The notes beneath the pieces were generated by a model, which worked only from the letters and a program-made list of their open reading frames with translations, was not told the DNA's origin and ran no database searches. This document shows, one piece after another, positions 7,906 to 23,457 of a stretch of DNA of 23,457 nucleotides. Position numbers and translations under genes: made by a program. The DNA comes from a virus. The stretch's first letter is position 1, and every line of letters starts with the position of its first letter. The stretch is taken from positions 1 to 23,457 of the IMG/VR virus record IMGVR_UViG_3300036859_000346; one strand, written 5' to 3'.

Positions 7906-7937
7906 CGCCCAACCTGGCGCAGATAAGGAGCCCGCAC

Positions 7938-8204: not shown

Positions 8205-8214
8205 GGCTCACCAC

Positions 8215-8790: not shown

Positions 8791-9161
8791 GTTTCGGCTC
8801 GCTGCTGCGGCACAAGGTGCTGATCAGCCAGCGCCGGCCCGTGCTGGCTGCCGGCCTGCCCACCTACGATGCCCGGGGCCAGCAGATCGTCAGCCTGCAG
8901 CCCGTGGGCGAGTACCGGACCCGGATCCAGCAGCTCACGGCGCGCGAGATCGCTCTGCTGGGCCAGGCGGGCGCCGTCATAGGCGACCACCGCCTGTACT
9001 TCTTCGCGGGCACGCCGGTGGACGAGGCCAGCCAGGTGCAGCCCCAGCCCGCTGACGGGCGCCTGTTCGAGATCACGCGCGTCAACGACCTGGGCGGCGA
9101 GGGCCGGTACCTCGAGGTGTTCGCCACACTGGTCACCAGCACGGAGGTACCTGCATCGTGA
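8787..9161 (+). CDS. Head closure / stopper-like protein
   Basis: 124 residues, ATGA overlap with the adaptor gene. Predominantly beta: VLISQRRPV, GEYRTRIQQLTAREIALLGQ, HRLYFFAGTPVDEASQV, GRLFEITRVNDLGGEGRYLE, VFATLV. This matches the small beta-barrel of head-tail joining or head-completion proteins (a barrel ending in a strand that reads FEI..V....G.......V). The stopper seals the packaged head and forms the platform for the tail. Synteny (after adaptor, before gp10-like) supports the role. The stop overlaps the GTG of the fibre-like gene. Confidence 0.65.
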   Translation: MSFGSLLRHKVLISQRRPVLAAGLPTYDARGQQIVSLQPVGEYRTRIQQLTAREIALLGQAGAVIGDHRLYFFAGTPVDEASQVQPQPADGRLFEITRVNDLGGEGRYLEVFATLVTSTEVPAS

Positions 9162-9721
9162 CCACCCGCGTACGCCGCAGCCACCTGGCCCTGCGCCGGC
9201 TGGACGATCCGCCCGAGCCGCCGCCCGAGGGCGCTGAGCTGATCTATGCCGATGCCACTGGCGCCCTGCGCCAGCTGGATGACCTCGACAACGACAGCCC
9301 CATAGGTGGCGACGCGTCGGCAGCGATCGCAGCCCACGAGGCGGCTGGCAACCCACACCCGAACTACGAGACGTCCGCCGAGGCGCAAGCCAAGGTGGAC
9401 GCCGCGGTGGCCGCCCTGGTGGGCGCTGCGCCCAGCACCCTGAACACGCTGGCCGAGATCGCCACCGCCCTGGCATCGGATCCGGCGCTAGCCACCACGC
9501 TCACGGCGCTGATCGGCACGAAGCAGCCCCTGGACGCCACGCTCACCGCCCTGGCGGCCGTGGTGACGGCCGCCGACAAGCTGATCTATGCCACCGGCGT
9601 AGATACGTTCAGCACCGCCACACTCTCGGCCTTCGCCCGCACCCTGCTGGACGACGCGGATGCGGCCGCTGCCCGGGACACCCTGGGCGCGGCGGCCGCC
9701 AGCGCCGGCCAGGTGCATTGA
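9158..9721 (+). CDS. Tail-fibre-stalk-like protein inside the connector block
   Basis: 187 residues, GTG start coupled to the previous stop. Residues 1-60 are Pro/acid-rich with ELIYADATGALRQLDDL. From about 62 the sequence reads like fibre stalks: NPHPNYETSAEAQAKVDAAV, APSTLNTLAEIATALASDP, LTALIGTKQPL, then the widespread fibre repeat pattern TLTALAAVVTAADKLIYATG, FARTLLDD and ARDTLGAA. These segments normally sit in long receptor-binding fibres near the tail tip; here they end at once (SAGQVH) with no receptor-binding head. It may be a head or neck fibre. The Ser/Thr-rich stalk is a plausible acceptor for the adjacent glycosyltransferase, to which it is coupled (TTGA, 9718-9721). Confidence 0.75.
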   Translation: MTTRVRRSHLALRRLDDPPEPPPEGAELIYADATGALRQLDDLDNDSPIGGDASAAIAAHEAAGNPHPNYETSAEAQAKVDAAVAALVGAAPSTLNTLAEIATALASDPALATTLTALIGTKQPLDATLTALAAVVTAADKLIYATGVDTFSTATLSAFARTLLDDADAAAARDTLGAAAASAGQVH

Positions 9722-10785
9722 CGGAGGCGCCTGGCTCACGGCACCTGTTCGTCCTGGCCACAGGGCAGGACACGGGCGGCTGGGGCATCCGCATCAAGGC
9801 CGGCATCGACCGGCACGCGCCGGGCTGGACGGCTAGGAGCATGGCCACCACCCGCATGTACTTGGACTACCCCACCGACCTGCCCTTCCGGCGCGAGCTG
9901 GCCCGGGCGCACTACGGCCAGGCCGACGTGGTGCAGCTGCGGAACACGCTGCACGGCTGGCAGCTGTACGACGACGGTGCCGGCAAGCCCGTGGTGCTGC
10001 TCTACCACGGCAGCCAGTACCGCCGCGATCACGCCCAGCTGGCGGCTGAGGCGCGCGAGATCGGGGCGCTGCAGATCGTTAGCACCATGGACCTCACCCT
10101 GATCGAGGGCGACGCCACCTGGGTGGGCTCGCCCTACAACCTGGCCGAGCTGCGCGCGATCCGGGCCCAGCACTACCGCCCCGACGGCCGGATCCGCATC
10201 GCGCACGCGCCCACGAACCGCGCCATCAAGGGTACCGAGCACTTCCTGCAGGTGGTGCGCCGGCTGCAGGCCCGCCACCCCGTCGAGCTGGTGCTGATCG
10301 AGCAAGAGCGCTGGGCCACGTGCCTGCGCCGCAAGGCGACCGCCGACATCTTCTACGACCAGCTGGAGCTGGGCTACGGGAACAACGCCATCGAGGCCTG
10401 GGCCATGGGCATCCCGGTGGTGGCCGGTGCCGCGGATCCAGCCGTCCGGGCGGCCATGCGCCGGCGCTGGGGCCGGCTGCCCTTCCAGCAGACCACGCCC
10501 GACCAGCTGGAGGCGCGCCTCGAGGCACTGATCACCAGCGAGCGCGCGCGCCAGGAGTGGGCCCATGCCGGCACCGAGCACGTCGAGCGGTGGCATGATG
10601 AGCGGGTGGTGATCCCGCAGCTCCTGGAGATCTACAGCGCGGCCCTGCCCACCCAGCCTGGCCCGGTGCACGCCACGCGCGACCGCGCGGGCCGGCGAGC
10701 AGCGCGGGCACTGCGAGCACAGCAGAGCCTCGAGCGCGCCCTGGCACAGCGCGCAGCTGGCCGGGCCGCCAGGGTGGCTGGCTAG
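9718..10785 (+). CDS. GT-B fold glycosyltransferase
   Basis: 355 residues, TTG start within the TTGA overlap with the fibre-like gene. GT-B (GT4-like) signs: N-terminal Rossmann strand HLFVLATGQDTGGWGIRI with a Gly-rich loop; LLYHGSQYRRDH (94-105); the linker and start of the donor domain RIRIAHAPTNRAIKGTEHFL (158-177, Lys171 in KGT); VELVLIE; and the donor-sugar motif GYGNNAIEAWAMGIPVV (219-235, Glu226). It should transfer a sugar from a nucleotide donor to a protein or glycan. The C-terminal 40 residues are Arg/Ala-rich and basic. Context inside head-tail genes suggests a virion target. TAGTG overlap with the next gene. Family call is firm; substrate unknown. Confidence 0.85.
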   Translation: MTEAPGSRHLFVLATGQDTGGWGIRIKAGIDRHAPGWTARSMATTRMYLDYPTDLPFRRELARAHYGQADVVQLRNTLHGWQLYDDGAGKPVVLLYHGSQYRRDHAQLAAEAREIGALQIVSTMDLTLIEGDATWVGSPYNLAELRAIRAQHYRPDGRIRIAHAPTNRAIKGTEHFLQVVRRLQARHPVELVLIEQERWATCLRRKATADIFYDQLELGYGNNAIEAWAMGIPVVAGAADPAVRAAMRRRWGRLPFQQTTPDQLEARLEALITSERARQEWAHAGTEHVERWHDERVVIPQLLEIYSAALPTQPGPVHATRDRAGRRAARALRAQQSLERALAQRAAGRAARVAG

Positions 10786-11210
10786 TGGCCCGGCGAGGCA
10801 AGGCCCGGGGCCCTGGCAAGCGGGTCATCATGAACCGCGAGGCGCTGGACGCCATCAACCTGGGCGCCGCCGACGGACTGCAGGACATGGGCGAGCAGGT
10901 GCTCGCTGTGGCCCAGCCGCACGTGTGGGACCGCACGCCCAAGGGCCAGGGCATCATCGAGACCGGCAAGGCCGTCACCTACGTGAACGCCCGCAAGGTG
11001 GCCGGCACCGGCAGCGCGCCCAGGGGCGCCGCGGTGCGCGGCCTGATCGTCACCGTGGTGGGCTACGACTTCCCGGCGCGCTTCCAGGAGACGGGCACGT
11101 CGAAGCAGGCGGCCAAGCCGGTGCTGACGCCGGCCATGGCAGAGGTGGCACCGCACGGTGGCGACAACATGACCGCGTTCATCAAGCGGCGGCTGGGAGG
11201 GGTGCGCTAG
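10785..11210 (+). CDS. HK97 gp10-like tail-completion / minor head-tail protein
   Basis: 141 residues, GTG sharing one base with the previous stop (TAGTG). Pattern: a basic N-terminus, helix ALDAINLGAADGLQDMGEQV, AQPHVWDRTPKGQGIIETGK, strand RGLIVTVVGYDFPARFQETG, and TSKQAAKPVLTPAMAEV at the end. The segment Y..f..P...E.GTskq...P.l.PA matches HK97 gp10-type proteins, where a central strand then E(x)GT and a PxLxPA helix are hallmarks. It works at the head-tail interface before tail docking. It belongs with the adaptor, stopper and terminator, from which the fibre/glycosyltransferase pair separates it. Confidence 0.85.
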   Translation: MARRGKARGPGKRVIMNREALDAINLGAADGLQDMGEQVLAVAQPHVWDRTPKGQGIIETGKAVTYVNARKVAGTGSAPRGAAVRGLIVTVVGYDFPARFQETGTSKQAAKPVLTPAMAEVAPHGGDNMTAFIKRRLGGVR

Positions 11211-11668
11211 TGGCCACCGACATGTGGGATCCCGTGGGCAAGCTGCTGACGGAGCTGCGCGACGACACCGCCGTGGCGGCGATCGCCGGCGAGAACCCGC
11301 ACGAGCCAGTACAGGCCCGCGTCCGCAGCCCCAAGCCAGGCCAGGGCGACAGCCAGGGCCCGGGCCACTACCGGGCCTTCGTCACGATCGCGACGCTGGC
11401 TACACCACGCCACCCCAGCGTTCCTCTGCAGCGCGCCAGGCACGTGGTAACGTGCTACGGACGGGACCCCGAAGAGGCCGCGGCTCTGTACATCGCATGT
11501 TCGGAGGCGCTGCACCACAAGGGCCCGCGGCAGACCGGCAGCGGCCATGGCATCTATGTGAGCCACGACGACACCGGCGGCACAGAAGACGAAGATCCGG
11601 ACACCCAGCAGCCCCTATACCGCTTCGTAGTCGAAACCCTCGCCACCACCCAGGTGCTGGCGCCATAG
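11210..11668 (+). CDS. Tail terminator protein
   Basis: 152 residues from GTG at 11210, overlapping the previous stop by one base, with GGGAGGGG about ten bases upstream. The alpha/beta pattern fits tail terminators (gpU/gp17.1/gp11-like): N-terminal helix DPVGKLLTELRDDTAVAAIA, strands around RAFVTIATLA and ARHVVTCYGRDPEEAAALYI, a helix with CSEALH, and a C-terminal strand LYRFVVETLATTQ. It caps the polymerising tail tube and joins it to the head. The order (gp10-like, terminator, tube) is standard. A small hairpin follows the stop. Confidence 0.8.
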   Translation: MATDMWDPVGKLLTELRDDTAVAAIAGENPHEPVQARVRSPKPGQGDSQGPGHYRAFVTIATLATPRHPSVPLQRARHVVTCYGRDPEEAAALYIACSEALHHKGPRQTGSGHGIYVSHDDTGGTEDEDPDTQQPLYRFVVETLATTQVLAP

Positions 11669-11671
11669 CAG

Positions 11672-11694
11672 CCCCGGCGGTACTGCCGCCAGGG
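11672..11694 (+). other. Short hairpin in the gap after the tail terminator
   Basis: GGCGG (11676-11680) and CCGCC (11686-11690) pair around TACTG, extended by CCC/GGG across a single bulged A (11691). No U-tract. It lies in a 45-base gap before the six-cysteine gene; it may be a weak pause or processing site. Confidence 0.3.
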
Positions 11695-11713
11695 TGCGAC
11701 GGGAGAGAGACAG

Positions 11714-12214
11714 GTGACAACCGCACAGGCCGCTCGAGCCCGCGCGCAGCGCCCGCCGCTGCAGCCGGCCACCTTCACCATGGTGGCCGACGGTGTTCGC
11801 GCCCAGGTGGTCACCAGGGCCAACATCCTCCCGGCGCACCTCACCACCAGCGCCCACGAGGGCCGCCAGGCCAGCTGCCAGTGCTGGCCGCTCATGGAGC
11901 AGCTGATGGCCCGCCAGGTATGGCGCGTGGCGCCGGCGGGCACCCGGGAGGCATGCACCCAGGACGAGCACGATCTACGGCCGTTGCGGGCCTGTGTGTG
12001 GCCCGAGGCGCCCCAGGCGCTGGCCGCCCAGGCATGGCACGGCATCGTGGAGATCCTGCTCACCATGTGCGCCTACTGCGGCGCCGTGGAGGTGCGCGAC
12101 ACCAGCTACCACCAGCTTGCCGGTGTTCGATCCGGCAGCCTGGCGACCCGCCGGCGCTCAGACATCCTGGGCTGGTACGCCGGCAAGCGCCCGGCCGGGC
12201 GCGTGTACACGTGA
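11714..12214 (+). CDS. Unknown six-cysteine protein inserted before the tail tube gene
   Basis: 166 residues, GTG with SD GGGAGAG upstream. I do not recognise it. Visible features: a beta-like N-terminal part (FTMVADGVRAQVVTRANILP), CQCWP (C55, C57), C81, C94, and CAYC (C119-C122) followed by GAVEVRDTSYHQL, then a basic end (GWYAGKRPAGRVY). The Cys pairs suggest a metal site, with W and H residues nearby. It is flanked by unusually long gaps (45 and 60 bases) with its own SD, so it may be expressed separately from its neighbours. It occupies the slot between terminator and tube proteins, where an extra gene is uncommon. Confidence 0.65.
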   Translation: MTTAQAARARAQRPPLQPATFTMVADGVRAQVVTRANILPAHLTTSAHEGRQASCQCWPLMEQLMARQVWRVAPAGTREACTQDEHDLRPLRACVWPEAPQALAAQAWHGIVEILLTMCAYCGAVEVRDTSYHQLAGVRSGSLATRRRSDILGWYAGKRPAGRVYT

Positions 12215-12236
12215 GCCCCACCATGTAAGCCCGTGC

Positions 12237-12251
12237 GCCGGTGGCCCCGGC
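12237..12251 (+). other. Small hairpin before the tail tube gene
   Basis: GCCGG (12237-12241) and CCGGC (12247-12251) pair around a five-base loop. The 12-mer GCGCCGGTGGCC at 12235-12246 is identical to the left arm of the hairpin after the capsid gene (7875-7886). Both are in spacers before SD-equipped genes. Could be chance in such GC-rich DNA. Confidence 0.25.
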
Positions 12252-12259
12252 ATCCAAGC

Positions 12260-12267
12260 AAGGAGGT
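12260..12267 (+). promoter_or_regulatory. Strong Shine-Dalgarno of the tail tube gene
   Basis: AAGGAGGT, a full anti-SD match, seven bases before GTG at 12275. It decides that start over an in-frame upstream start at 12233, and it is consistent with high expression of an abundant tail protein. Confidence 0.85.
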
Positions 12268-12274
12268 ACGAACC

Positions 12275-12808
12275 GTGGGACTGCGCGCAGCCACCCCAGC
12301 CAACCTGGTCGTAGGCGCCGGCGACGTGCTGGTCGAGGATGCCGACCAGGGCGTCACGGCCGACGACAACGTGTACCGCGTGGAGCAAGAGCTGTTCAGC
12401 CCCGACAACCTGAACGGCTCGCCTGGCACGCTGGTGGACACCCACTACAAGGTCAAGGAAGAGGCGGTGCTCGAGGTCACCTGGCCCGAGGTGGCCGCCG
12501 ACACCTTGGCGCTCATGTGGCCCGGCAGCCAGTCGGCCGTGGTGGGCGACAGCACCACCATCGACAGCGATGGCACGGAGCGCCGGATCCCGAGCACCGA
12601 CTACCACGACTACGAGCTGCGGGTGCCGGGGCTCAACGGCAAGGTCTTCAGCTTCTTCGCCGACAACGGGCTCAACGTGGCCCCGATCGAGCTGAGCGGC
12701 CAGAACGCCGGCATGATGAGCCCGCGGCTCGAGATCCACAGCGCCTGGAGCGCTGCGGACATCACGGCCAGCCCGCACCGGATCGTCATCACCGTCCCGG
12801 CCAGCTGA
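12275..12808 (+). CDS. Major tail (tube) protein
   Basis: 177 residues from GTG set by AAGGAGGT. It forms the hexameric rings of the non-contractile tube. The sequence is almost all beta with Gly/Asp turns: RAATPANLVVGAGDVLVEDA, VYRVEQELFSPDNLNGSPG, VDTHYKVKEEAVLEVTWPEV, TALMWP-like middle, a charged hairpin SDGTERRIPSTDYHDYELRV, and a C-terminal IELSGQNAGMMSPRLEIHSA strand pair ending IVITVPAS. This follows actinophage-type tube proteins in length and fold pattern. Synteny (terminator upstream; chaperones and tape measure downstream) and the strongest SD in the tail region support it. Confidence 0.8.
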   Translation: MGLRAATPANLVVGAGDVLVEDADQGVTADDNVYRVEQELFSPDNLNGSPGTLVDTHYKVKEEAVLEVTWPEVAADTLALMWPGSQSAVVGDSTTIDSDGTERRIPSTDYHDYELRVPGLNGKVFSFFADNGLNVAPIELSGQNAGMMSPRLEIHSAWSAADITASPHRIVITVPAS

Positions 12809-12817
12809 GCCAGCCAG

Positions 12818-13324
12818 GTGCAGCTGCGCGACTTCCTGCCCCGGCGTAGCGTCGAAGACATACTGTCGGGGCGCATTCGCTTCTGGCTGGGCGCCGAGGG
12901 TGGGCGCTGGTACGAGGTGCCGGTGCTGCCGATCGAGGCCAACGAGCGCTGGCGGGCTGGGCTTGACGCCCAGCTTGCCAGCCTGCTCACCCAAGTCACC
13001 CAGGCCGGCGACGATGCCGGGCTGATCCTGGGCCTGCTGACCGGCGCCAGCAACGACCTGCTGGGCACCCTGGTGAGCTATGACGAGGGCCACACCCTGC
13101 CGCCCCAGGAGGAGCTTGCCCGGCTGGCCCGGCCACACGAGGCGCTGCGGGCGGTGCTCGAGTGCTGGCTCGCTGCGAACCCTCTAGCCGCCATCGGGCT
13201 GCTGATGGCCGACGAGGGCAACATGCAGCCGCCGGCGCCTACGACCAGTGGGGCCCCATCCGCGCCTACGAAGCCGCCAGCGCCTACGGGTGGGGCAGCC
13301 CGAGCCACATCCGGCGCACACTGA
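12818..13324 (+). CDS. Tail assembly chaperone, first frame (G-like)
   Basis: 168 residues in the zero frame, GTG start nine bases after the tube gene and without a clear SD. Sequence: RFWLGAEGGRWYEVPVLPIE (21-40), ANERWRAGLDAQLASLLTQV, then helices to about 132 (LAAIGLLMADEG), matching N-terminal tail-chaperone parts. The last 30 residues (QPPAPTTSGAPSAPT and on) are low-complexity and use poor third positions, consistent with the real message having moved to the -1 frame. The chaperone coats the tape measure during tube assembly. It is expected to give both a short form and a frameshifted long form. Confidence 0.75.
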   Translation: MQLRDFLPRRSVEDILSGRIRFWLGAEGGRWYEVPVLPIEANERWRAGLDAQLASLLTQVTQAGDDAGLILGLLTGASNDLLGTLVSYDEGHTLPPQEELARLARPHEALRAVLECWLAANPLAAIGLLMADEGNMQPPAPTTSGAPSAPTKPPAPTGGAARATSGAH

Positions 13325-13599
13325 CCGATGAGCAGTTCATCGCCTACCTGGACGCAGCCACCGACCGGATCGTGGAGACGAGCCGGCTCGATCTGCTACG
13401 CGCTGCGGAGGCCGCCCGCATCGGCACCCTGGGCGCCCACAACGGGCGCTGGTACCGCACGTGGCGCCAGAGCCAGCAGCGCCGCGCGACGGCCGACAGC
13501 GGCCGCCCCATCGGCCTTGAGGGCGAGGATCTCGAGCGGGCGCTGTACGCGCTCCTCCACAGCAATCCCGACATCGTGGCCGTGCGCCAGGCAGCCTAG
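13162..13599 (+). CDS. Tail assembly chaperone, -1 frame extension (GT-like)
   Basis: Open frame of 145 codons in the -1 frame relative to the chaperone gene, overlapping it by 163 bases. Convincing coding starts only near 13230 (AAGAYDQWGPIRAYEAASAY, then helices TLTDEQFIAYLDAATDRIVE, RLDLLRAAEAAR and a C-terminal ALYALLHSNPDIV). No start codon exists in this frame near that point; the first available GTG (13162) would give an unlikely leader. A programmed -1 frameshift giving a fusion of about 260 residues is therefore the best explanation, as in lambda G/GT. No canonical XXXYYYZ heptamer is visible. It is followed three bases later by the tape measure. Confidence 0.7.
   Translation: MLARCEPSSRHRAADGRRGQHAAAGAYDQWGPIRAYEAASAYGWGSPSHIRRTLTDEQFIAYLDAATDRIVETSRLDLLRAAEAARIGTLGAHNGRWYRTWRQSQQRRATADSGRPIGLEGEDLERALYALLHSNPDIVAVRQAA
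13235..13288 (+). repeat. Three copies of GCGCCTACG in the frameshift region
   Basis: GCGCCTACG occurs at 13235-13243, 13262-13270 and 13280-13288. In the zero frame each reads Ala-Pro-Thr; in the -1 frame each gives Ala-Tyr. It may simply reflect repeated AY in the real protein or play a part in frameshifting. Confidence 0.5.
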
Positions 13600-13602
13600 C
13601 CC

Positions 13603-15603
13603 GTGAGCAGCATCTTCGACGTCTTCGGCCGCCTGCTGCTGGATCCCGGCAGGTTCGAGGCCGATGCCCTGCGGGTGGCCAACGCCACCGGCGACAAGGT
13701 GGGCAAGGCCATGGGCAGCAAGGCCAGCGAGAGCCTAGGGCACCAGCTGGGCCGTGGCTTCACCCAGGGGCTGGGGCTTGCCGGTGCCCTGGGCGCGGCC
13801 AACCTGGCGGCCAACGTGGTGGGCGGCGTCACCGACCTGATCAGCACCAGCATCGCGGCCGCCAGCGACCTGAACGAGACGGTCAGCAAGGGCCAGGTGA
13901 TCTTCGGCAAGAACGCAGCCGAGATCGAGGCATGGGCCGGCACCGCGGCCAGCGCCTTCGGCCAGAGCAAGAAGGCCGCGATCGACGCGGCCAGCACCTT
14001 CGCCGGCCTGTTCCAGACGGTGGGCATAGCCGGCGACAAGAGCACCGAGATGGCCCGCAAGCTGACCGAGCTGGGCAGCGACCTCGCCAGCTTCTTCAAC
14101 ACCGACGTGGACGAGGCGCTGCAGGCGATCCGCAGCGGCCTGGCCGGCGAGAGCGAGCCGCTGCGCCGGTACAACATCTTCCTGAGCGAGACGGCCGTGA
14201 CCGCCAAGCTGGTGGCCACCGGGCACAAGAAGGTGAAGGGCGCCTTCAGCGAGAGCGAGAAGGCCGCTGCGCGGTATCAGATCATCTTGGAGCAGACCAG
14301 CGCCGCCCAGGGTGACTTCGCACGCACCGCCGACGGCCTGGCCAACAGCCAGCGCGCGTACAACGCGGAGCTGGAGAACCTGCAGGCCCAGCTGGGGCAG
14401 GAGTTCCTGCCGATCGCCAAGCAGGTAACGGACTGGCAGCTGGACTTCATCCGTGGCCTGGGCGTGGCCGGCGGTGCCATCGGTAGCTTCGCCGGCACGC
14501 TGAACGACGTGCAGACCAACATCAACGACGCGGTCAGCGGCTTCACGCCCTGGGAGGAGGCCACCGAGAAGGCGGCCCGCGAGGCGGCTGCGGCCGCCGC
14601 TACCGGCGGGACCGAGGTGGGCAAGGCGGCCGCCGAAGGCACCGCGGCCGGGCTGGACGCCAACACCCAGCGGATCATCACCAGCTGGAACAAGGCCATG
14701 GGCTATATGGACCCGATCTTCGCGGCGATGCGCGAGCGCCTGAAGGCCGGGGCCCACGGCCTGGGCGCCGATGTGGCCGAACAGGTGGCAGCCGGCCTGG
14801 CCGAGCAGCGCGACACGATTGACAGCCTCATCGAGGATCTGAACGAGCGGCGCACGCATCCACCCGTTAGCAGCACGCACGAGGTGGAGAACCTGCTGGA
14901 GGCGCTGTTCAGCCCAGCACTGGCGGCCGACCTCAAGAGCCCCGACCAGCTCACGCGCCAGCTGGCCACGCAACTGCGCGAGAGCCTGCTGCAGCGCCTC
15001 GAGGACATCAAGCTGCGCCCAGGCATCATGAGCGACAAGACGAAGGCGCTGATCGACAAGGCCGAGAAGGACGCCGACCCTGCGATCCAGCATCTGGCCG
15101 GCGAGGTGGAGCGCCTGTACAACGTGAACATGGCCGCGATCGACGCCAAGGAAGCCGAGGAGGCCGCCGGCAAGCTGGCCGAGAAGCACGCCCAGGAGTA
15201 CGTCCAGAGCTTCGTTGACTGGATGCGCTCGCCGGCAGTGCACACCACCATCGACAACGCCATCAAGGGCGCGCTGGAGGTGGCGCCTACGCTGCAGGGC
15301 TGGTGGGACAACCTGCTGGGCACGCTGAGCACGCCGAGCGGCACCCCGGTGCCCAGCCCGGCGCCAGGGCCCGCGCCCACGCGCGGTGGCGCCACAGGCA
15401 TCGACTACGTGCCCTACGACATGGCCGCCAAGATCCACGCCCGGGAGGCCGTGCTGGCGCCGGCCGAGGCCGATGCCTGGCGTGCCGGCAAGGGCGCCGG
15501 CATGGAGCAGAACGTGTTCATCGAGACCGTGAACATCACGGACCCCAGCGACGAGCCCAGCCTGTTCAACCGGCTGCGCTACCACGCCCTGGCAGGCGGC
15601 TGA
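13603..15603 (+). CDS. Tape measure protein
   Basis: 666 residues, GTG start. It sets tail length and is ejected ahead of DNA. Signs: a long helical, Ala-rich sequence; a hydrophobic stretch (about 53-90, GFTQGLGLAGALGAANLAAN); the conserved tape-measure block with FGKNAAEIEAWAGTAASAFG (101-120), STFAGLF, LGSDLASFFNTDVDEALQAI (157-176) and GLAGESEPLRRYNIFLSE (179-196); coiled-coil middle; Pro-rich linker (TPSGTPVPSPAPGPAPT); and a C-terminal YDMAAKIHAREAVLAPAEAD segment. At about 1.5 angstrom per residue, the family rule of thumb, the tail would be near 100 nm. It follows the chaperone frames and precedes the tail-tip genes, as expected. Confidence 0.95.
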   Translation: MSSIFDVFGRLLLDPGRFEADALRVANATGDKVGKAMGSKASESLGHQLGRGFTQGLGLAGALGAANLAANVVGGVTDLISTSIAAASDLNETVSKGQVIFGKNAAEIEAWAGTAASAFGQSKKAAIDAASTFAGLFQTVGIAGDKSTEMARKLTELGSDLASFFNTDVDEALQAIRSGLAGESEPLRRYNIFLSETAVTAKLVATGHKKVKGAFSESEKAAARYQIILEQTSAAQGDFARTADGLANSQRAYNAELENLQAQLGQEFLPIAKQVTDWQLDFIRGLGVAGGAIGSFAGTLNDVQTNINDAVSGFTPWEEATEKAAREAAAAAATGGTEVGKAAAEGTAAGLDANTQRIITSWNKAMGYMDPIFAAMRERLKAGAHGLGADVAEQVAAGLAEQRDTIDSLIEDLNERRTHPPVSSTHEVENLLEALFSPALAADLKSPDQLTRQLATQLRESLLQRLEDIKLRPGIMSDKTKALIDKAEKDADPAIQHLAGEVERLYNVNMAAIDAKEAEEAAGKLAEKHAQEYVQSFVDWMRSPAVHTTIDNAIKGALEVAPTLQGWWDNLLGTLSTPSGTPVPSPAPGPAPTRGGATGIDYVPYDMAAKIHAREAVLAPAEADAWRAGKGAGMEQNVFIETVNITDPSDEPSLFNRLRYHALAGG

Positions 15604-15604
15604 C

Positions 15605-16012
15605 GTGGCGCCGGCACTGATATGGGAGCACTCCTGGGATGGCGTGGATCTGAACAGCCTTGTCAGCCCCGGCTACAGCACCCACGTGGCCGAGGCCATG
15701 CAGGGCGCCGGGCAGGCCATGCTGAGCACTGAGATGCAGGCCAGCCTGCCGGTGCCCAACCGGCAGCAGCCCCTGGCCGGTCGCTACACCTTCCTGTGCC
15801 AGCCCATCGCCACCACCGATGTGCTGTACCAGTCGCTCATGGCCGAGCTGCGGGCGATCACGGGCCCCGGGCCCCACAGCTGGGTGTTCCGGGCGCCAGG
15901 CGAAGAGACGGCCCATACCGTGGAGGTGTGGGTGGACGGCCCGATGAGCATCGACGACAGCATGTATGGTGTGGCCACCTGGCGCGCCGTAGCCCACACC
16001 CCACCGTACTAG
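15605..16012 (+). CDS. Small tail-tip protein, possibly distal-tail related
   Basis: 135 residues, GTG two bases after the tape measure stop. Beta-rich: ALIWEHSWDGVDLNSLVSPG, LPVPNRQQPLAGRYTFLCQP, a helical DVLYQSLMAELRAIT, HSWVFRAPGEETAHTVEVWV, then DGPMSIDDSMYGVATWRAVA. The gene position right after the tape measure and the pattern of strands around v.V.VDGpm.I resemble the N-terminal barrel of distal tail (Dit) proteins, but it is short and the match is loose. It probably forms the ring joining tube and hub. Confidence 0.55.
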   Translation: MAPALIWEHSWDGVDLNSLVSPGYSTHVAEAMQGAGQAMLSTEMQASLPVPNRQQPLAGRYTFLCQPIATTDVLYQSLMAELRAITGPGPHSWVFRAPGEETAHTVEVWVDGPMSIDDSMYGVATWRAVAHTPPY

Positions 16013-16022
16013 GGAGCAAGCG

Positions 16023-16748
16023 ATGCCGGTAGAGAGCGCAGACCTCAAGTGGCTGCTGAGCGCCAGTGGCGCGAGCGAAGGCGGTGCCCGCAGCGCCGTG
16101 GAGGTGGCCGACGCCACCAGCGAGAACCTGTTCCCGAACATCACCGAGGCCGAGGCCCTAGCGGGCGGCACCGACTACCGCAAGCTGTTCAGCGCCAACG
16201 ATGACGGGGTGGACAGCTACCCCGAGCACAGCATCTGGCTCAAGGGCGCGCCTTCGGCCGGCCACACCATGAGCATCGGCCTGGGCTTCGACGACGGGGC
16301 GGACGCCGACGCCACCGCCGGGATCCTGGCCAGCTTCAGCGCGGCCGCCAAGGTGGCCCTGGTGAGCGACGGCGCCGACACCCGCAGCTGCGACGTGTGG
16401 GGCTACGACGCGGCGGGCGATCCACTGATGGAGACAGTGGTGCTCACGGGCGCGGCCGAGGTGCTCAGCGTGGCCACCTTCAGCGACGTGCTGGCGGTGC
16501 ACACCACCACCAGCGGCAGCCGGACCGTCACCATCAAGCAAGGCACCGGCGGCACCACCCGCGGGCAGATCGCCATCGGCCAGGCGGTGTGCTTCCGGTG
16601 GCTGGCGGCCACGACCAAGAGCACCGGCATCAAGCTGCCACCGCTGGCCACTGGTGGCGCCGACGGTGTGTGGATCCGCCGCGCCTGGGCAGCCAGCCTG
16701 GCCGCCATCGACGCCACCGAAGCCAAGCTGCGCACCGAGGAGCTGTAA
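16023..16748 (+). CDS. Virion structural protein (tail-tip associated family)
   Basis: 241 residues, ATG with GGGAG upstream. It follows a pattern I recognise from structural proteins of diverse siphophages: MP.E..DLK..LSG...S......S..EV.DAT..NLF..I...EA..G...YRk.f..N......, a strand HSIWLKGAPS, then IGLGFDDGA. Here: ESADLKWLLSASGASEGGAR, EVADATSENLFPNITEAEAL, GGTDYRKLFSANDD. The middle (140-185) is Ig-like beta. The end (TKSTGIKLPPLATGGADGVW) is typical too. It probably decorates the tail tip or tube. Exact function not established to my knowledge. Confidence 0.7.
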   Translation: MPVESADLKWLLSASGASEGGARSAVEVADATSENLFPNITEAEALAGGTDYRKLFSANDDGVDSYPEHSIWLKGAPSAGHTMSIGLGFDDGADADATAGILASFSAAAKVALVSDGADTRSCDVWGYDAAGDPLMETVVLTGAAEVLSVATFSDVLAVHTTTSGSRTVTIKQGTGGTTRGQIAIGQAVCFRWLAATTKSTGIKLPPLATGGADGVWIRRAWAASLAAIDATEAKLRTEEL

Positions 16749-16751
16749 CCC

Positions 16752-17186
16752 GTGGCGATCATCACAACCGTGTACAACGACTTCAAGCGCAACGGGCCGT
16801 CCGTGAACGTGCTTGACGGCCACACCATCGACGTGGTGCTGCTGACCAGCGCCTACACGCCCGACATAGACGCCGATGTGGACGAGGGCGATCTCACCGG
16901 CGAGCTAGCTGGCACCGGCGGCTACACCGTGGGCGGCGAGACGATCGCCGGCCTGGTGAGCGGGATCGACACCGCCGGGAACTTCGCCTACCTGGATGGC
17001 GACGACGTGATGTGGGGCACGCTCACACCCAGCGCCGCCTTCCGGTACGCGGTGCTGGTGGATCGGAGCGACAGCGACCGGCTGATCCAGTACATCGACT
17101 TCGGAGCCGACCAGGATCCTGCCGGCCTCGACTTCGCGATCACGTGGCCATCCGCCAGCTCTGGCGGGATACTGAAGGTGGTGTGA
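16752..17186 (+). CDS. Virion structural protein (tail-tip associated family)
   Basis: 144 residues, GTG three bases after the previous stop. It matches a widespread phage structural family: MA....vYN.FK......v..l....I.v.L.TS.YTP.iD.........E..GTG.YT.GG.....V...D..N....DgDdv.Wg..T......aVly.......LI.yiDFG.d.......f.ItWp....GGilk. Here YNDFKRNGP, DVVLLTSAYTPDID, TGGYTVGGETIAG, YLDGDDVMWGTLTPSAAFRY, IQYIDFGADQ and SGGILKVV. This family commonly lies beside the preceding one near the tail tip. Role probably structural; no enzymatic residues seen. Confidence 0.75.
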   Translation: MAIITTVYNDFKRNGPSVNVLDGHTIDVVLLTSAYTPDIDADVDEGDLTGELAGTGGYTVGGETIAGLVSGIDTAGNFAYLDGDDVMWGTLTPSAAFRYAVLVDRSDSDRLIQYIDFGADQDPAGLDFAITWPSASSGGILKVV

Positions 17187-17188
17187 CG

Positions 17189-18088
17189 GTGAGCTTCACG
17201 ATCGAGAGCAACGACACAAGCGAGGCGCCGGCGATCCAGTCGGTGTGGTACGACACCGACATCCGGATCCTGGAGCGCGGCCTTGCCGGCGTAGGGGTGC
17301 TGACGGGCTGTGGCGTGACGGCCCAGGGCAGCCCGGACATGACGGTGGCGGTGGCCGCCGGCACGATCCAGCCCAGCGCCGGCGCCGCCGCCGTGACCGT
17401 GACCAGCGGCAACGTGACGGTGGGCACAGCCCACGCCACCCTGCCGCGTCTGGACCTGATCTCGGCAGCGGCCGACGGGACGAAGACGATCACGGCCGGC
17501 ACCGCGGCCGCCAGCCCCAAGCCGCCGGCCCTGCCCAGCGGCCATATCGGGCTGGCCTTCATCTACGTGCCCGCCACCGCGACCACGATCACCACCGCCC
17601 GGATCACCGACAAGCGGTGCAACCCGCCGGCCAGCACCGGCGTGGCCTTCAAGATGCGGGCGCCGCAGGGCACCGGCACCATGACCACCACCTCGCCCAC
17701 CTATGTGGCCATCGACGCCACGGACCTGGCGTACCTCACGCTCAACCTGGCGGTGGGCGATGTGGTGCGGTGCATGCTGGCCGCCCAGCTGCTCTCCTCC
17801 AGCGACAGCGTGGTGTCGTTCGACTTCGAGGTGGATCAGCCCACCAGCGCGAACGTGCGGGTGGGCGAGGGTGCCGACCGTGGGCTGGGCTCGCAAGCGG
17901 GCGCGGCCGCGTTCCGGCAGACGGTCAACATCATGGGCCTGTTCGTGGCCACCGAGGCCGGCGTGCACGGCTTCCGGCCCATGTGGCTGACCGACGCCGG
18001 TACCGCCAGCCTGGCGAACGCCTCGTCGGCCGACAGCGACAGCGTGGTGACGTTCTCGGTGGAGAAGCTGGGCCAGCCGGCCGCCTGA
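17189..18088 (+). CDS. Tail fibre / receptor-binding-type structural protein
   Basis: 299 residues from GTG at 17189, with AAGGTGG upstream. Upstream in-frame starts lie inside the previous gene. The N-terminal two thirds follow a pattern common in tail fibres and upper baseplate proteins: GVLTGCGVTAQGSPDMTVAV, AAGTIQPSAG, then an R.DLI....DG..t...GTAA..P..P..P.g...La.iYVPA.at.I....ITDKR block. The C-terminal third (about 155-299) is a beta-sandwich-like domain (VAFKMRAPQGTGTMTTTSPT, VVSFDFEVDQPTSANVRVG). Probably a trimeric fibre or adaptor at the tail tip, next to the large hub. Receptor unknown. Confidence 0.7.
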   Translation: MSFTIESNDTSEAPAIQSVWYDTDIRILERGLAGVGVLTGCGVTAQGSPDMTVAVAAGTIQPSAGAAAVTVTSGNVTVGTAHATLPRLDLISAAADGTKTITAGTAAASPKPPALPSGHIGLAFIYVPATATTITTARITDKRCNPPASTGVAFKMRAPQGTGTMTTTSPTYVAIDATDLAYLTLNLAVGDVVRCMLAAQLLSSSDSVVSFDFEVDQPTSANVRVGEGADRGLGSQAGAAAFRQTVNIMGLFVATEAGVHGFRPMWLTDAGTASLANASSADSDSVVTFSVEKLGQPAA

Positions 18089-18110
18089 GGCGGCTGCTGA
18101 CAGCTAACCC

Positions 18111-21100
18111 ATGCCGGCCCTGATCGGACCGGGTGGCGGTGAGGTAGGCCCGGGTGGCGGTGAGGTAGGCCCCAGCTCAGCCGACCTTGCCCCGCCCGCC
18201 GGCGTCATCACCTACGTCGGCGGTGTACCCACCACATCCGCCCAGCTGCCGCGCGCCGATGTAGGCCCGATCGACAGCGGCACGGTGGGCCCAGCTGGCG
18301 GGCTCATCGGGCCAGGCCCCGGTTACGCCCGCATCGCGCTGCCGCCCAGCGGCACGAAGCAGCTCACCACCGGCGGCGCGCCTGGCCTGATCACGCCGCC
18401 TGGGGTGATCTACAAGCGCCCGCCGACCAACGATCAGCCGCCCACCGATGCCAGCTGGCTCCGGGCTGCCGGGAACCCGATCATCGAGGCCGACGTTGCC
18501 TGGGAGGGCGACGTGGTGCGCGAGCCGTGCGTGATCCAGGCCGGGGGCCTGTTCCGCATGTGGTACTCGGGTGGCGACCCCGAGGCCATCGGCTACGCCA
18601 CCTGCCCCGACGACCAAGACGTGGGCGATCCGGCGAACTGGACCAAGTACGCCGGCAACCCGATCATCACCGACGCCCGCAAGCCCAACGTGCAGGTGGT
18701 GGGCGGCCTCTACCGGCTCATGTTCACGGGCACCGATGGGCAGCTGTACACCACCACCAGCGTGGATGGCTTCACGGGCTGGAGCACGCCGGTGGTGGCC
18801 CTGGCGCTGGTAGGCGATGTGGAGGAGTGGGCCAGCCCCAGCCCGCTGTACGTGCCGGCCGAGCACGGGCTGGTGCTACGCACTGGCTCGCGCCTTGAGG
18901 CCACGCCACCGGGCGCGTACAAGGCATGGCCCGCGGTGTGCCGGCTGCAGGATGGCCGGCTGCTCATGGCATACACCGACGCCAACGGGCACCACAGCGA
19001 CAACAGCGGCCAGTGGGTGGGCAAGTTCAGCACGGACGGCGGCCTCACCTGGGGCACCGAGTTCCTGATCTACGACGACCCCACTCTGTGGACCACCGTG
19101 ATGGGCATCAGCCAGGTGGCCAGCGGGCGGATCTACGCCACGGGCTGGCGCGACAGCGGGGCGCCCACCACCGCCGGCCAGGGCGGCTACGTGTTCAGCG
19201 ACGACGGTGGCGCCAGCTGGAGCGGCTGGCAGGCAGTCACCACCAGCAGCGACCTGAACGAGTACCTCACGGGCCCGGTGGTGGAGCTGGGCAACGGCGA
19301 CCTGCTGGTGCCGGTGGAGATCACCTTCGCAGCGGACGGTGGGCTGAACAACAGCTCGCGCCTGCTGCGCGCGCCGGGCGGCACCCTTCCGTTCACCGAG
19401 GAGATCATCGTCCACGACTACAGCGACGATGGCCACCCGCACTACGAGAGCAAGCTGGGGCTGCTGGACAACGGCGACCTGCTGATGATCCACCGCCGCG
19501 GCAATAGCACCGCCGACGTGCACGAGATCCAGCGTTCGACCGACAATGGCGCCACGTGGAGCGAGCCTACCGATGGCCCGCTGGGCTACGGGGCGCCCAG
19601 CTGGGTGCAGCTACGGACGGGCGTGCTGGTGCTGATCACCAGGCAGGCCGGCGATGCAGCTGTGATCGCCTACCTGAGCCACGATCGCGGCGCCAGCTGG
19701 GGCGCGGCCATCTTGGTGGACGACACCTTCCAGGAGATGGAGTACGGGGCGCCCGTGGAGCTGCCGGATGGCAGCGTGCTGGCCGTGTACAGCCTGCAGA
19801 TCACCACCAGCATATTCAGCGCCGGGATCTACACGTCGGTGCTGGACCTGGCGCCCTGGTTCATGCTGGTGGCCGGCTTCGCGCTGAACCGCTGGCACAT
19901 CTACCGGGCTAGCAGCACGGACGGCCTGGCGTGGACCACCGATGGCGCCTACGTGGCCGAGCTGCAGCTGCACACCCTGGGCTCGTCCAGCGGGCCGCAC
20001 CTGCGGGCCTTCGCCGGCGCCTATCACCTGTGGTATGAGGCCACGCCGGCGAACGGGATCCTGCCAACAGACATCTACCACGCCAGCACCGCCACGCTAC
20101 GAAGCGCCTGGGGAGCGCGCACGCTGGTGCTCGAGCACACCGGCAGTGGCTTCGAGGACGACCAGGTGGCGCGGCCCCACATCGTGCTGGGCGAGGGGCC
20201 CAGCGTGGGCGTGGCCTTCCTGTACTACGACGGCCAGGATGCCAGCCCGGTGGCCGGCGCCATAGGTGTGGCCCTGGCGGCCGCGGTGGGCGGGATCAGC
20301 ATCAACGGTGGTGGGGTGTTCAGCGAGCTGCGCCTGCGCTGGGCAGTGGGCCTGGTGGGCAGCGAGATGCGCCTGCGCTGGGACGTGGAGGGCCCGATCG
20401 CAGAGGCCGAGCTGGCCCTGCGCTGGGGCGTGAACGGCCGCATCGGCAGCACCCTGACGCTGCCCTGGGCGGTGGCCGGCACGGCTGCCAGCGAGCTGCG
20501 CCTACGGTGGGCCGTCAAGGCCCTGCGCAACGAGGTGCAGGTGATCACGCCCACGGGCACCGTGGAGGGCGGCACCTACACCCTGACGTTCGACGGGCAG
20601 ACCACGGCACCGATCGCAGCCGGCGCAAGCGCGGCCACGGTGCAGGCCGCCCTGGAGGCGCTCAGCAACGTGGCGCCCGGCGACATCGTGGTGACGGGCG
20701 GGCCGCTCACCGAGCAGCCCCTGGTGCTCACCTTCGGCGGCGCCTACGCCGGCGTGGACGTGCCCCAGGTGACAGTGGATGGATCGGGGCTCACGGGCCC
20801 TGGCAGTGGCGCCACGGGCGGCACGGTGGTGCCTGGCGGCACGCCGCACCCCACGCCACCGCGCAGCGACGTGCCCCAGCTGTGGCGGCCCATGCACGTG
20901 TTCGACAAGGGCGGCGCCTACCTGGGCTCGATCACCCGGTTCAACGTGCCCAGCCCACCCACCCGCTACCTGCGCGCCTACCGGATCCGCAACACCGGCG
21001 GCATGACGTTCGAGGTGAGCCGCCACAGCGACGAGATCGACCTCATCGCAGCCGACCGCTGGGTGCTGCTGCAGAGCCTGGCTGGCGAGGAGCCGTGGCT

Positions 21101-23105
21101 GGGCAAGATGAGCCCGCGCCTCAGCGCCGGCGGCGTGCAGCAGGTGGAGTGCCTGGACGGCTGGCAGGCCCTGAACCTGGGCAGCCATCTGGTGCTCGAG
21201 CAGACGGTGGGCGACGGCACGCCGGCCACCGCGGTGTACGCCATGCTGGTCGAGCAGATGAACAACCTGCGGGCCCTGACGGGCGAGGTGCTGTGGGAGC
21301 TGGATGCCCAGGGCAGCCGGCCCTACCGGGGCGACATCGACTGGGACGGCACGCCGCTGGCCACCATCGATGCCGTGATCGAGCAGAGCTTGACCGAGCT
21401 TGCCTGCACCGGGCGCCTCGAGGGCGGGCGCCTGGTGCCCACCCTGGTGGTGCGCGATCGCTTCGAGGGTGGCGCCGGCGCCAGCTTGCATGACGGCCTG
21501 CTGGCCACCGTCACCAGCGGCGCGCAGGTGGCCGAAGATCCGACGCCGCTGGTGTTCAGCCTGCGCCTGCGGGGCCTGACCACCGACCTGGCCGCGTGCT
21601 TGCCCGAATGGGCCCGCTGGGCGCTCAAGGACATCACGCCCGAGGTGGTAGTAAGCGTGGATCCGGGGCCGTTCGACATGCGCGAGCAGGCCGAGCTGAA
21701 CGTGCAGTTCGGGCTCAGCCACGCGGCCGTGATGGCGCAGTGCAACGCCATCATCGACTGGCTGACCGACCTGTACCACAGCTTCCTACGCGCGGTGCAC
21801 GACATCGAGGGCCGGCCTTGGCACCCGGGCTGGGCCTACCTGGGGCCGCCCGATGCCTTCGAGCCCCACAGCGCGGGCAAGGACAGCCTGAGCCGGCGTG
21901 CCTGGAAGAACCGCCTGGAGCTGGTGGAGGTGGATCCGGGCGAACCCGCCAGCGCCGTGATGCTGAGCGACCAGAGCAGCCTCATCAACCTGCGCGAGTG
22001 GCTGATCGTCACCTACCTGCGGCGCACCGGCGTGCAGCATGTGGGCGTGTACGGGATCCCGACGGTGGCCGGCATCAGCCTGGTGCGCTGGGCGCTCAGC
22101 GGCAGCACCACGCTGTACACCGTGAGCGGCCGCCGGGTGGTGGATCGCGACACCCTGACGGGGCCCACCGGCGCCTTCGTGGATCCGTACAACGTGCGGG
22201 TATGGGACCCACCGCACACCGTGAGCGGCCACCTCGTGCCAGGCCAGTACCGCAACCTGCGCCGGATCATCAACGGGCCCTTCGCGCTCACGGGCTACGT
22301 GGACCCAAGCGACGGCGACAACACCTTCACGGACCTGGGCCCGGACGCTGCTATCAGCCAGGCCGAGGGTGATGGCTCCAGCCTGATCAGCAAGGTGTAC
22401 GACTTCGAGGCTAGGCGCATCCAGGAGTGGGATCCGCGGCGCGATGGCGTGGGCATGCTGCTGGGCCGGCCCACCGTGTACTTCGGAGCCCCGACGACGC
22501 GGCCGCGCTGGCACATCGTGAGCTTCAACGTGGGCGGTGACTTCAGCACCCAGCTGGTGCAGGGCATCGGCGCAAGCACCGCCGGCGCGGTGCAGGTGAT
22601 CGAGGTCGAGAGCTACTACGGCGCCCCGGACCCCGATCGCGACACCGACCAGTTCCCGTGGACCGCCACGATTGGCGAGGGCCTGACCGAGGAGCAGGTG
22701 ACGGTGCGCACGCCGGCCGACATGCAGGGCACCGAGTGGACGGTGGTGCGCGGCGCCAACGGCACCGACCCGATCCTGCACGAGCCAGGCGAGCGGGTGG
22801 GCCGCCTATCCGATGAGGTGTGGGATGGCTTCCCCTGGGCACCTGAGCTTGCCGCCTGGCCCGAGGGCCGTGCCTGGGCCGAGGAACTGCTGGCCGAGCT
22901 GAGCCGCGAGCGGGTGGACCTGGGGCTGCACGTGACGCACTGGTACGGCGACCAGCTGACCATCGGGTACGGTACGGTGCACCCTGTGAACGTGGCCAGC
23001 GAGGGCGTGCCCGAGCGCTGGATCGGGGCCGGCCGGGTGATCGGCTGGAGCACCGATGCAGCTGGTGGCGAGACAGAGGTCGTAGTGGAGTGGCTGGGTG
23101 GCTGA
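18111..23105 (+). CDS. Giant tail-tip hub fused to beta-propellers (sialidase/GH43-like)
   Basis: 1664 residues, ATG without obvious SD. Domains in order: 1-75 Gly/Pro-rich with a GPGGGEV tandem; 115-260 GH43/GH130-like propeller blades (REPCV, LFRMWYSGG, AGNPIITD); 265-575 sialidase-type BNR propeller with four exact S-x-D-x-G-x-x-W Asp boxes (307-314, 363-370, 476-483, 523-530); 585-715 further GH43-like blades (YHLWYEA, DDQVARPHIV); 738-806 five LRLRW repeats; 804-895 Ig-like domain (GGTYTLTFDGQTTAPIAAGA); 925-1664 baseplate hub resembling ReqiPepy6 Gp37 (MHVFDKGGAYLGSITRFNVP to the end). The usual sialidase RIP arginine is absent (AWPAV at 272-276), so binding is more likely than sialidase activity. 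Likely the adsorption and ejection hub. Confidence 0.88.
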   Translation: MPALIGPGGGEVGPGGGEVGPSSADLAPPAGVITYVGGVPTTSAQLPRADVGPIDSGTVGPAGGLIGPGPGYARIALPPSGTKQLTTGGAPGLITPPGVIYKRPPTNDQPPTDASWLRAAGNPIIEADVAWEGDVVREPCVIQAGGLFRMWYSGGDPEAIGYATCPDDQDVGDPANWTKYAGNPIITDARKPNVQVVGGLYRLMFTGTDGQLYTTTSVDGFTGWSTPVVALALVGDVEEWASPSPLYVPAEHGLVLRTGSRLEATPPGAYKAWPAVCRLQDGRLLMAYTDANGHHSDNSGQWVGKFSTDGGLTWGTEFLIYDDPTLWTTVMGISQVASGRIYATGWRDSGAPTTAGQGGYVFSDDGGASWSGWQAVTTSSDLNEYLTGPVVELGNGDLLVPVEITFAADGGLNNSSRLLRAPGGTLPFTEEIIVHDYSDDGHPHYESKLGLLDNGDLLMIHRRGNSTADVHEIQRSTDNGATWSEPTDGPLGYGAPSWVQLRTGVLVLITRQAGDAAVIAYLSHDRGASWGAAILVDDTFQEMEYGAPVELPDGSVLAVYSLQITTSIFSAGIYTSVLDLAPWFMLVAGFALNRWHIYRASSTDGLAWTTDGAYVAELQLHTLGSSSGPHLRAFAGAYHLWYEATPANGILPTDIYHASTATLRSAWGARTLVLEHTGSGFEDDQVARPHIVLGEGPSVGVAFLYYDGQDASPVAGAIGVALAAAVGGISINGGGVFSELRLRWAVGLVGSEMRLRWDVEGPIAEAELALRWGVNGRIGSTLTLPWAVAGTAASELRLRWAVKALRNEVQVITPTGTVEGGTYTLTFDGQTTAPIAAGASAATVQAALEALSNVAPGDIVVTGGPLTEQPLVLTFGGAYAGVDVPQVTVDGSGLTGPGSGATGGTVVPGGTPHPTPPRSDVPQLWRPMHVFDKGGAYLGSITRFNVPSPPTRYLRAYRIRNTGGMTFEVSRHSDEIDLIAADRWVLLQSLAGEEPWLGKMSPRLSAGGVQQVECLDGWQALNLGSHLVLEQTVGDGTPATAVYAMLVEQMNNLRALTGEVLWELDAQGSRPYRGDIDWDGTPLATIDAVIEQSLTELACTGRLEGGRLVPTLVVRDRFEGGAGASLHDGLLATVTSGAQVAEDPTPLVFSLRLRGLTTDLAACLPEWARWALKDITPEVVVSVDPGPFDMREQAELNVQFGLSHAAVMAQCNAIIDWLTDLYHSFLRAVHDIEGRPWHPGWAYLGPPDAFEPHSAGKDSLSRRAWKNRLELVEVDPGEPASAVMLSDQSSLINLREWLIVTYLRRTGVQHVGVYGIPTVAGISLVRWALSGSTTLYTVSGRRVVDRDTLTGPTGAFVDPYNVRVWDPPHTVSGHLVPGQYRNLRRIINGPFALTGYVDPSDGDNTFTDLGPDAAISQAEGDGSSLISKVYDFEARRIQEWDPRRDGVGMLLGRPTVYFGAPTTRPRWHIVSFNVGGDFSTQLVQGIGASTAGAVQVIEVESYYGAPDPDRDTDQFPWTATIGEGLTEEQVTVRTPADMQGTEWTVVRGANGTDPILHEPGERVGRLSDEVWDGFPWAPELAAWPEGRAWAEELLAELSRERVDLGLHVTHWYGDQLTIGYGTVHPVNVASEGVPERWIGAGRVIGWSTDAAGGETEVVVEWLGG
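18129..18170 (+). repeat. Exact 21-base tandem repeat, two copies
   Basis: Units 18129-18149 and 18150-18170 are identical and encode GPGGGEV twice near the N-terminus of the hub fusion. Further degenerate GP-x-x-x repeats follow in the protein (to residue 68). Copy number could vary by slippage. Confidence 0.9.
19029..19700 (+). repeat. Four Asp-box (BNR) repeats within the hub fusion
   Basis: STDGGLTW (19029-19052), SDDGGASW (19197-19220), STDNGATW (19536-19559) and SHDRGASW (19677-19700) each match S-x-D-x-G-x-x-W. In known sialidases and other propellers this motif marks the third-fourth strand turn of a blade, so at least four blades are present here. Confidence 0.9.
20322..20528 (+). 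repeat. Five LRLRW repeats linking propellers to the Ig-like domain
   Basis: Units begin near residues 738, 751, 766, 780 and 794: SELRLRWAV, SEMRLRWDV, AELALRWGV, STLTLPWAV, SELRLRWAV, period 13-15 residues. Alternating hydrophobic/polar residues with an invariant Trp suggest a beta-helix or stacked hairpins acting as a spacer rod. The pattern resembles repeats in other phage fibre proteins. Confidence 0.8.
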
Positions 23106-23457
23106 TCCGATCGTGCCGCCGGTGTATACAACGCCCGCGCCGGCCGGCGGGCAGAAGAACGTCAAGACCCCGCGCACCCGCATGGGCAAGCGCCTGGCGC
23201 CCATCCCGCTGGTGTACGACCGCGACAAGGAGAAGGGCAAGGCCACCGTCAAGGCCGTGGCGAAGCAGGCCCGCAAGAAGCTGCCGGGCGCGCTCACCAG
23301 CAAGGCGCCGGTGGACGAGCAGTACAACACCCGGGTCTACTTCAGCGAAGCCTTCGGGCCTGACGCCGGCAAGGTGTACAGCGAGCCGCTGGAGATCGAG
23401 GACCTGGCCGAGTGGGCCGGCAAGGAGTTCTACTGGCGCGTCGAGATCGACCAGTTC
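23098..23457 (+). CDS. Partial hypothetical tail-tip protein (runs off the end)
   Basis: 120 codons are open to the window edge, with no stop reached. The GTG at 23098 overlaps the hub stop by eight bases; a GTG at 23113 is an alternative. The N-terminus is Pro-rich (DPIVPPVYTTPAPAGGQ), followed by a Lys/Arg-rich stretch (NVKTPRTRMGKRLAPIP, KEKGKATVKAVAKQARKKLP), then a mixed region YNTRVYFSEAFG, EIEDLAEWAGKEFYWRVEI. Third positions are G/C throughout, so it is clearly coding. No family recognised. Position after the hub suggests a tail-tip accessory or the first gene of the next module. Confidence 0.75.
   Translation, partial: MADPIVPPVYTTPAPAGGQKNVKTPRTRMGKRLAPIPLVYDRDKEKGKATVKAVAKQARKKLPGALTSKAPVDEQYNTRVYFSEAFGPDAGKVYSEPLEIEDLAEWAGKEFYWRVEIDQF

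Follow-up and report, generated by a model that had tools for sequence, protein, structure and literature searches.

A sialidase-fold propeller and GH43-like blades at the N-terminus of a putative tail-tip hub chain in an uncultured siphophage

Siphophage host range is usually sought in fibres and separate receptor-binding proteins, and the locus described here raises the question of whether glycan recognition can also be built into the central chain of the tail tip. The window, by which we mean the whole 23,457-base stretch analysed, has a GC content of 70.7% and contains one ORF (Table 1) in which propeller-type sequence, a Trp-repeat rod and an Ig-like domain precede a long C-terminal part. 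With confidence a little better than even, we read this ORF as encoding, in an uncultured siphophage, a central protein of the tail tip, most likely the hub (Tal-type), with carbohydrate-recognition propellers grafted at its N-terminus.

The window displays a siphophage structural cluster on the + strand with the order TerS-TerL-portal-MCP-tail-TMP, and the location of the tape measure protein (TMP) gene, judged by gene order, places the 1,664-residue ORF in the tail-tip region. The 135-residue ORF at the site where relatives carry a Dit-like gene shows no family match, and no Dit was identified in the window. The connector region includes a 187-residue ORF (9158-9721) with similarity to numerous tail-fibre PHROGs (phrog_2631, E 1e-26), which is unusual at this location. 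Glycosyltransferase-like genes of differing types lie amid the head-tail genes of the window (9718-10785) and of relatives, and might glycosylate virion proteins. A tRNA-Gln called by ARAGORN within the large ORF (18559-18653, minus strand) has no Rfam match and is probably a false positive.

Table 1. Coordinates of the features in the window and of glycosyltransferase-like genes in related records.
Feature	Position	Strand	Basis or remark
Whole window, IMG/VR record IMGVR_UViG_3300036859_000346	1..23457		linear fragment
Small terminase, P27-type	1433..2062	+
Large terminase	2889..4547	+
Portal, SPP1-type	4549..6147	+
Scaffold-like gene	6169..6855	+
Capsid protein, HK97-type	6880..7839	+	followed by connector genes
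Tail protein	12233..12808	+
Tape measure protein (TMP)	13603..15603	+	phrog_1535, E 4e-23
135-aa ORF at site of relatives' Dit-like gene	15605..16012	+	gene order only
Single ORF, 1664 aa: propellers, Trp-repeat rod, Ig-like domain, C-terminal putative hub	18111..23105	+
Residues 1-105, Gly/Pro/Ser/Thr-rich (54%)	18111..18425	+	composition; low pLDDT for modelled 95-105
First GH43-like half, residues 106-254	18426..18872	+	blades 115-210 significant against GH43 domains of L026/L036
Complete six-bladed sialidase-fold propeller, residues about 255-582	18873..19856	+	Pfam, AlphaFold2, Foldseek, VIA
Second GH43-like half, residues 583-724	19857..20282	+	weak alone, 5.7 bits
Five Trp repeats [LM]xL[RP]WxV, residues 725-803	20283..20519	+	motif scan, DNA repeats
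Ig-like domain, residues 804-905	20520..20825	+	phrog_5042, phrog_10909
C-terminal tail-tip part, residues 906-1664 (759 aa), putative Gp37-like hub	20826..23105	+	position past TMP; hub-like start
Glycosyltransferase-like gene in L028	2671..4059		reverse strand reading
Glycosyltransferase-like gene in L029	2..1273
Glycosyltransferase-like gene in L030	3..1153
Glycosyltransferase-like gene in L048	10965..11981

Related phages were found through the capsid and terminase proteins of the window, and more of them through a profile of the relatives' hubs. The major capsid proteins of the relatives are 56-74% identical to that of the window, and the tail protein is 75-78% identical in L026 and L029, the closest records by this protein. 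The similarity to L026 and L029 ends at a sharp mosaic border, with nothing recognisable in common after the TMP gene; by this comparison the tail tip is exchanged relative to these two phages. The gene order read in L026, L029 and L030 comprises TMP, a small Dit-like gene and then the hub. Two lines of evidence support assigning the relatives' hubs to the Gp37-like type: Sipho_Gp37 matches below threshold in L043 (E 3e-5) and L045 (E 1.4e-3), and a prophage-like stretch of one genome of the Kutzneria phylum (L138), which carries TMP, a 464-residue Dit-like protein and a plain 368-residue hub in this order, the last matched by the clade hub profile built without L138 (probability 94%, E 2e-7).

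Seven such IMG/VR hubs (L036, L038, L039, L040, L041, L043 and L045), related by capsid protein or by hub profile and encoded after the TMP gene, have modules fused to them: GH43, sialidase-like, jelly-roll or PKD domains, or an inserted propeller. Each end of the L036 hub (9041-13576) carries a GH43 propeller (Pfam GH43, E 3e-16 and 7e-7); these paralogues share 30% identity, apparently through a duplication spanning the hub. The L039 hub ends in a sialidase-like propeller, and the L038 hub contains PKD and pectate-lyase-like domains. The N-termini of L038, L039 and L041 read from sequence as jelly-roll-like, those of L038 and L039 being alike. In addition, a 249-residue insert, which we infer to be a propeller on account of its repeats and of a weak match to Kelch, occurs at one point of the L036, L038, L039 and L040 hubs, is absent from L041, L042 and L045, and is also found (36% identity, E 4e-37) in the hub of L131 (reverse complement 3953-6466), which belongs to phrog_1887, a family unrelated to Gp37-like hubs. 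As judged from these comparisons, hub chains of this phage group carry modules at the N-terminus, at the C-terminus and internally, which suggests that the group swaps sugar-recognising modules on the tail centre. A separate 1013-residue protein in L032 (7257-10298, minus strand), read from sequence as BNR-type-propeller-like with Fn3-like domains (Pfam: weak Ig match only), is encoded directly before a 361-residue phrog_1887 hub and represents an unfused counterpart.

The sequence-only reading had assigned the C-terminal 740 residues of the window protein to a ReqiPepy6 Gp37-type hub, an identity that the present analysis does not demonstrate: for residues 906-1664, searches of Pfam, PHROGs and PDB sequences gave no match, not even to PF14594 (Sipho_Gp37-like) at E 10, and no relative turned up among phages, plasmids, IMG/VR records and 396 genomes from the Kutzneria phylum. 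What resemblance there is lies at the start, where the first 40-50 residues (D-x-x-G ... R-x-x-R ... F-x-x-S-R-H-S) align to the first 50 of the related-phage hub profile with a score of 27.3-27.6, reached by 0 and 1 of 150 shuffles in two tests; the best of 60 shuffles in an earlier test scored 29. The clade hub profile gave hhalign E values of 0.005-0.014 against the C-terminal part, with single shuffles higher in two tests, and pairwise and profile comparison with nine relatives' hubs exceeded shuffles only in a weak match at the start. The relatives' hub cores are recognisably Gp37-like and mutually alignable, whereas the C-terminal part of the window protein shows no significant alignment to them and was unalignable by MAFFT past its first 60 residues; because this alignment failed, the structure prediction that had been proposed for the hub part, run by AlphaFold2 on residues 906-1664, reached a pLDDT of 38 and no interpretable fold. 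Synteny alone is unable to carry the assignment, because the tail-tip genes past TMP have no matches in close relatives. We nevertheless regard it as probable that the C-terminal part is a hub, mainly from gene position and the hub-like N-terminal motif.

An alternative to this assignment holds that the C-terminal part is another tail-tip protein, such as a side baseplate protein or a fibre or spike anchor, and that the true hub lies past the right end of the contig. It draws on the missing hub-family match, on the four small unmatched ORFs between TMP and the gene, where the hub of relatives is preceded by a single Dit-like ORF, on the nature of the contig, a fragment ending 352 bases past the ORF, and on the usual location of phage sialidase-like propellers on spikes and separate proteins. 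It is countered by three points: (i) no other ORF of hub size occurs from TMP to the contig end; (ii) the first residues of the C-terminal part are hub-like and align with the beginning of the profile of the clade hubs; and (iii) the relatives normally carry such modules fused to hubs. On balance we consider a non-hub identity unlikely, and proceed with the hub as the preferred reading.

In the N-terminal half of the chain, Pfam BNR_2 (PF13088) matches residues 306-556 (E 5.6e-13), and the four exact Asp boxes noted earlier, S-x-D-x-G-x-[TS]-W, are confirmed at residues 307, 363, 476 and 523, compared with 0.003 expected per shuffled protein. In an AlphaFold2 model of residues 95-910, computed from an alignment with one homologous row, residues about 255-581 fold as a six-bladed propeller with pLDDT mostly 70-90, bearing out the claim of an N-terminal propeller of the carbohydrate-active-enzyme type. 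This fold matches Dfer_1899, of unknown function (VIA Z 36.5, rmsd 2.5 over 321 residues); GH33 sialidases score VIA Z about 34, Foldseek agrees on six-bladed sialidases, and the sialidase-dominated VIA list is uninformative on the remaining parts of the model. The region is a member of the BNR/sialidase-fold propellers, and is 33% identical to the C-terminal domain of L030/L039 (E 5e-39).

Membership in this fold invites the view that the propellers are active glycosidases, for instance capsule or exopolysaccharide depolymerases, as would fit a full-length propeller of an exo-glycosidase fold with Asp boxes, the tail-spike enzymes known with the same fold (BFVD matches such as the K1E spike) and the similar W-P motif of a bacterial BNR protein (L049). 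The active site argues otherwise for sialidase chemistry: in a profile alignment, the FRIP arginine of the sialidase 7af2, part of the arginine triad of GH33 sialidases, aligns to Ala272 in the window protein and is likewise alanine in L030 and L039 (YKAWP / YNAWP versus YFRIP of 7af2). Because this arginine is replaced by alanine, canonical sialidase activity is unlikely and glycan binding is favoured over hydrolysis for the propellers; other, non-sialidase specificities or pure binding are possible. The GH43-like halves, for their part, are too degenerate for a Pfam match. Active hydrolysis is, in our estimate, unlikely, and binding is the reading retained below.

The GH43-like propeller proposed in the sequence-only reading stands in part. 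Residues 115-210 align to the two GH43 domains of L026/L036 with hhalign E 4e-7 and hmmsearch E 1e-6, the hhalign score of 53.7 far exceeding the best of 100 shuffles (19.8). The second half is weak, Pfam (PF04616) matches neither half, single or joined, and AlphaFold2 left both halves unfolded (pLDDT about 20-25), so that of residues 115-720, the stretch expected to hold the propellers, only about 255-581 is folded. The layout also needed correction, the propellers being N-terminal as described, but with GH43-like sequence flanking the sialidase part on both sides. Joined in the order second-first, the two halves score 26.9 bits, compared with 17.0 in the order first-second and at most 4.7 in 300 shuffles, and their combined length of about 290 residues is that of a five-bladed propeller. 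These values are compatible with a GH43-type ring into which the sialidase propeller is inserted, the second half being the ring neighbour of the first; since the halves were not folded by AlphaFold2, this nesting is put forward as a hypothesis, and a sialidase propeller within a five-bladed GH43-like ring is possible but not proven.

Between the propellers and the C-terminal part, both the Trp-repeat rod and the Ig-like domain claimed earlier are present. The five Trp repeats are located at residues 740-802, and a search for the rod in phages returned only matches with E above 0.08. The Ig-like stretch matches phrog_5042 with E 4e-9, contains a stretch 64% identical to the Nocardia phage NTR1 major tail protein, aligns to the tail tip protein gp23 in PDB 9d93, which we take to be from phage Bxb1, with E 3.8e-14, and recurs in a tail protein of a relative (G447); by these matches it is an Ig-like domain common among actinophage virion proteins. 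At the other end of the chain, the N-terminus (residues 1-105) is probably unstructured.

That all these parts form one chain, as the sequence-only reading stated, agrees with the coding signal. The frame is open and unbroken across 1664 codons, third-position GC is 0.87-0.94 in the same frame over the entire length, and codon usage differs between the propeller and C-terminal parts by 0.078, against a mean of 0.084 for random splits. The ORF is real and coding throughout, and carries no sequence sign of a frameshift, join or fusion artefact, because the GC3 signal keeps to one frame and codon usage is within that of random splits. A second product, the C-terminal hub alone made from an internal start in addition to the full chain, is very unlikely: one in-frame GTG (residue 854) shows a Shine-Dalgarno-like match of 5/6 but falls within the Ig-like domain, starts near residues 906-930 lack a good ribosome site, and the main start lacks one as well, which makes this signal uninformative in this phage. 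Least credible of all is an assembly artefact, which could appeal to the metagenomic origin of the contig and to the lack of the same fusion in any other record, but is opposed by the single frame, by uniform codon usage and GC3 across the joins, and by comparable fusions in records independent of this one.

When relatives of the ORF product were sought, at full length and in parts, in IMG/VR, GTDB contigs, INPHARED phages, plasmids and 396 genomes from the Kutzneria phylum, the matches comprised only the Ig-like domain, the L030 sialidase-like domain, a few distant sialidase-like proteins and chance hits. The look-out for like fusions yielded relatives whose hubs, of firmer identity, are fused to GH43 and sialidase-like propellers, and no record with the same fusion. 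Glycan recognition on the hub chain, as first suggested, is supported in general by these fused hubs, with the hub identity of the window protein itself plausible yet unproven.

In the preferred reading, the C-terminal part would be a Gp37/gp27-like hub that trimerises beneath the distal ring of the tail. The Trp repeats and the Ig-like domain would serve as a spacer, and the three propeller copies, projecting round the axis of the tail, would bind a glycan on the host surface. Such binding would bring the tail channel to the wall ahead of DNA release and may couple recognition to the protein that closes the channel, and possibly to its opening. The GH43-like halves on either side of the sialidase part may make up one five-bladed ring with the sialidase propeller inserted, and the hub gene of this phage group would act as a socket for exchangeable modules at its N-terminus, inside it and at its C-terminus. 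The combined proposal, that a six-bladed sialidase-fold propeller is nested in a GH43-type five-bladed one at a siphophage hub N-terminus, and that the hub chain of the lineage is a three-site socket (N-terminal, internal and C-terminal) between whose sites carbohydrate-recognition propellers move, even across unrelated hub families, is tentative, and we would sooner doubt than assert it as a whole. If hub chains do carry interchangeable glycan-recognition propellers, hub genes deserve inspection when host range is predicted from metagenomes, and the exchange of modules at three sites in a single core protein, if true, would offer a testable route of host switching.

Compared with known systems, sialidase-like propellers of sequenced phages reside mostly on spikes, fibres or separate virion proteins, but the earlier statement that separate fibres are the normal place for such domains is only partly right. 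Exceptions are the megatron found in RcGTA and roseophage R4C, and Tal proteins that bear carbohydrate-binding modules. In the megatron, adhesin-like and sugar-enzyme-like domains lie N-terminal to a gp27-like hub domain (PMC7296036, PMC10276861). It resembles the window protein as one tail-axis chain in which mannanase-like peripheral and CBM-like domains precede the gp27-like central hub domain, but its peripheral domain is not a propeller, its hub is split into hub and megatron, and its N-terminal iris helices are not seen in the window protein. The Siphovirus ReqiPepy6 Gp37-like family (PF14594) is similar in presumed role and position, with a weak resemblance in the first segment through the clade profile, but differs in that the window protein gives no match to it. 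Tal and evolved Dit proteins with carbohydrate-binding modules (review PMC9863714) likewise place sugar-binding modules on core tail-tip proteins and not on fibres, although the modules are of other kinds and N-terminal propellers are not described in that review; and phage Jersey has a lambda-type hub with N-terminal extensions that include an Ig-like domain (PMC13243795). Proteins of the same propeller family occur in the tail gene clusters of Microcystis phage Mwe-JY05 (WWT39762.1, 30% identity) and Pseudomonas phage KLEP17-4 (gp22, 23%), but as separate genes unfused to a hub candidate. Phage phi11 Gp45, a receptor-binding protein with a five-bladed propeller proposed to bind wall teichoic acid GlcNAc (PMC4901313), is in contrast a separate trimeric protein placed around the baseplate, outside the hub chain. 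Against this background, the new elements are the type of module (propellers, which may be nested), its placement at the N-terminus of the window protein, and the exchange of such modules among three sites and two hub families.
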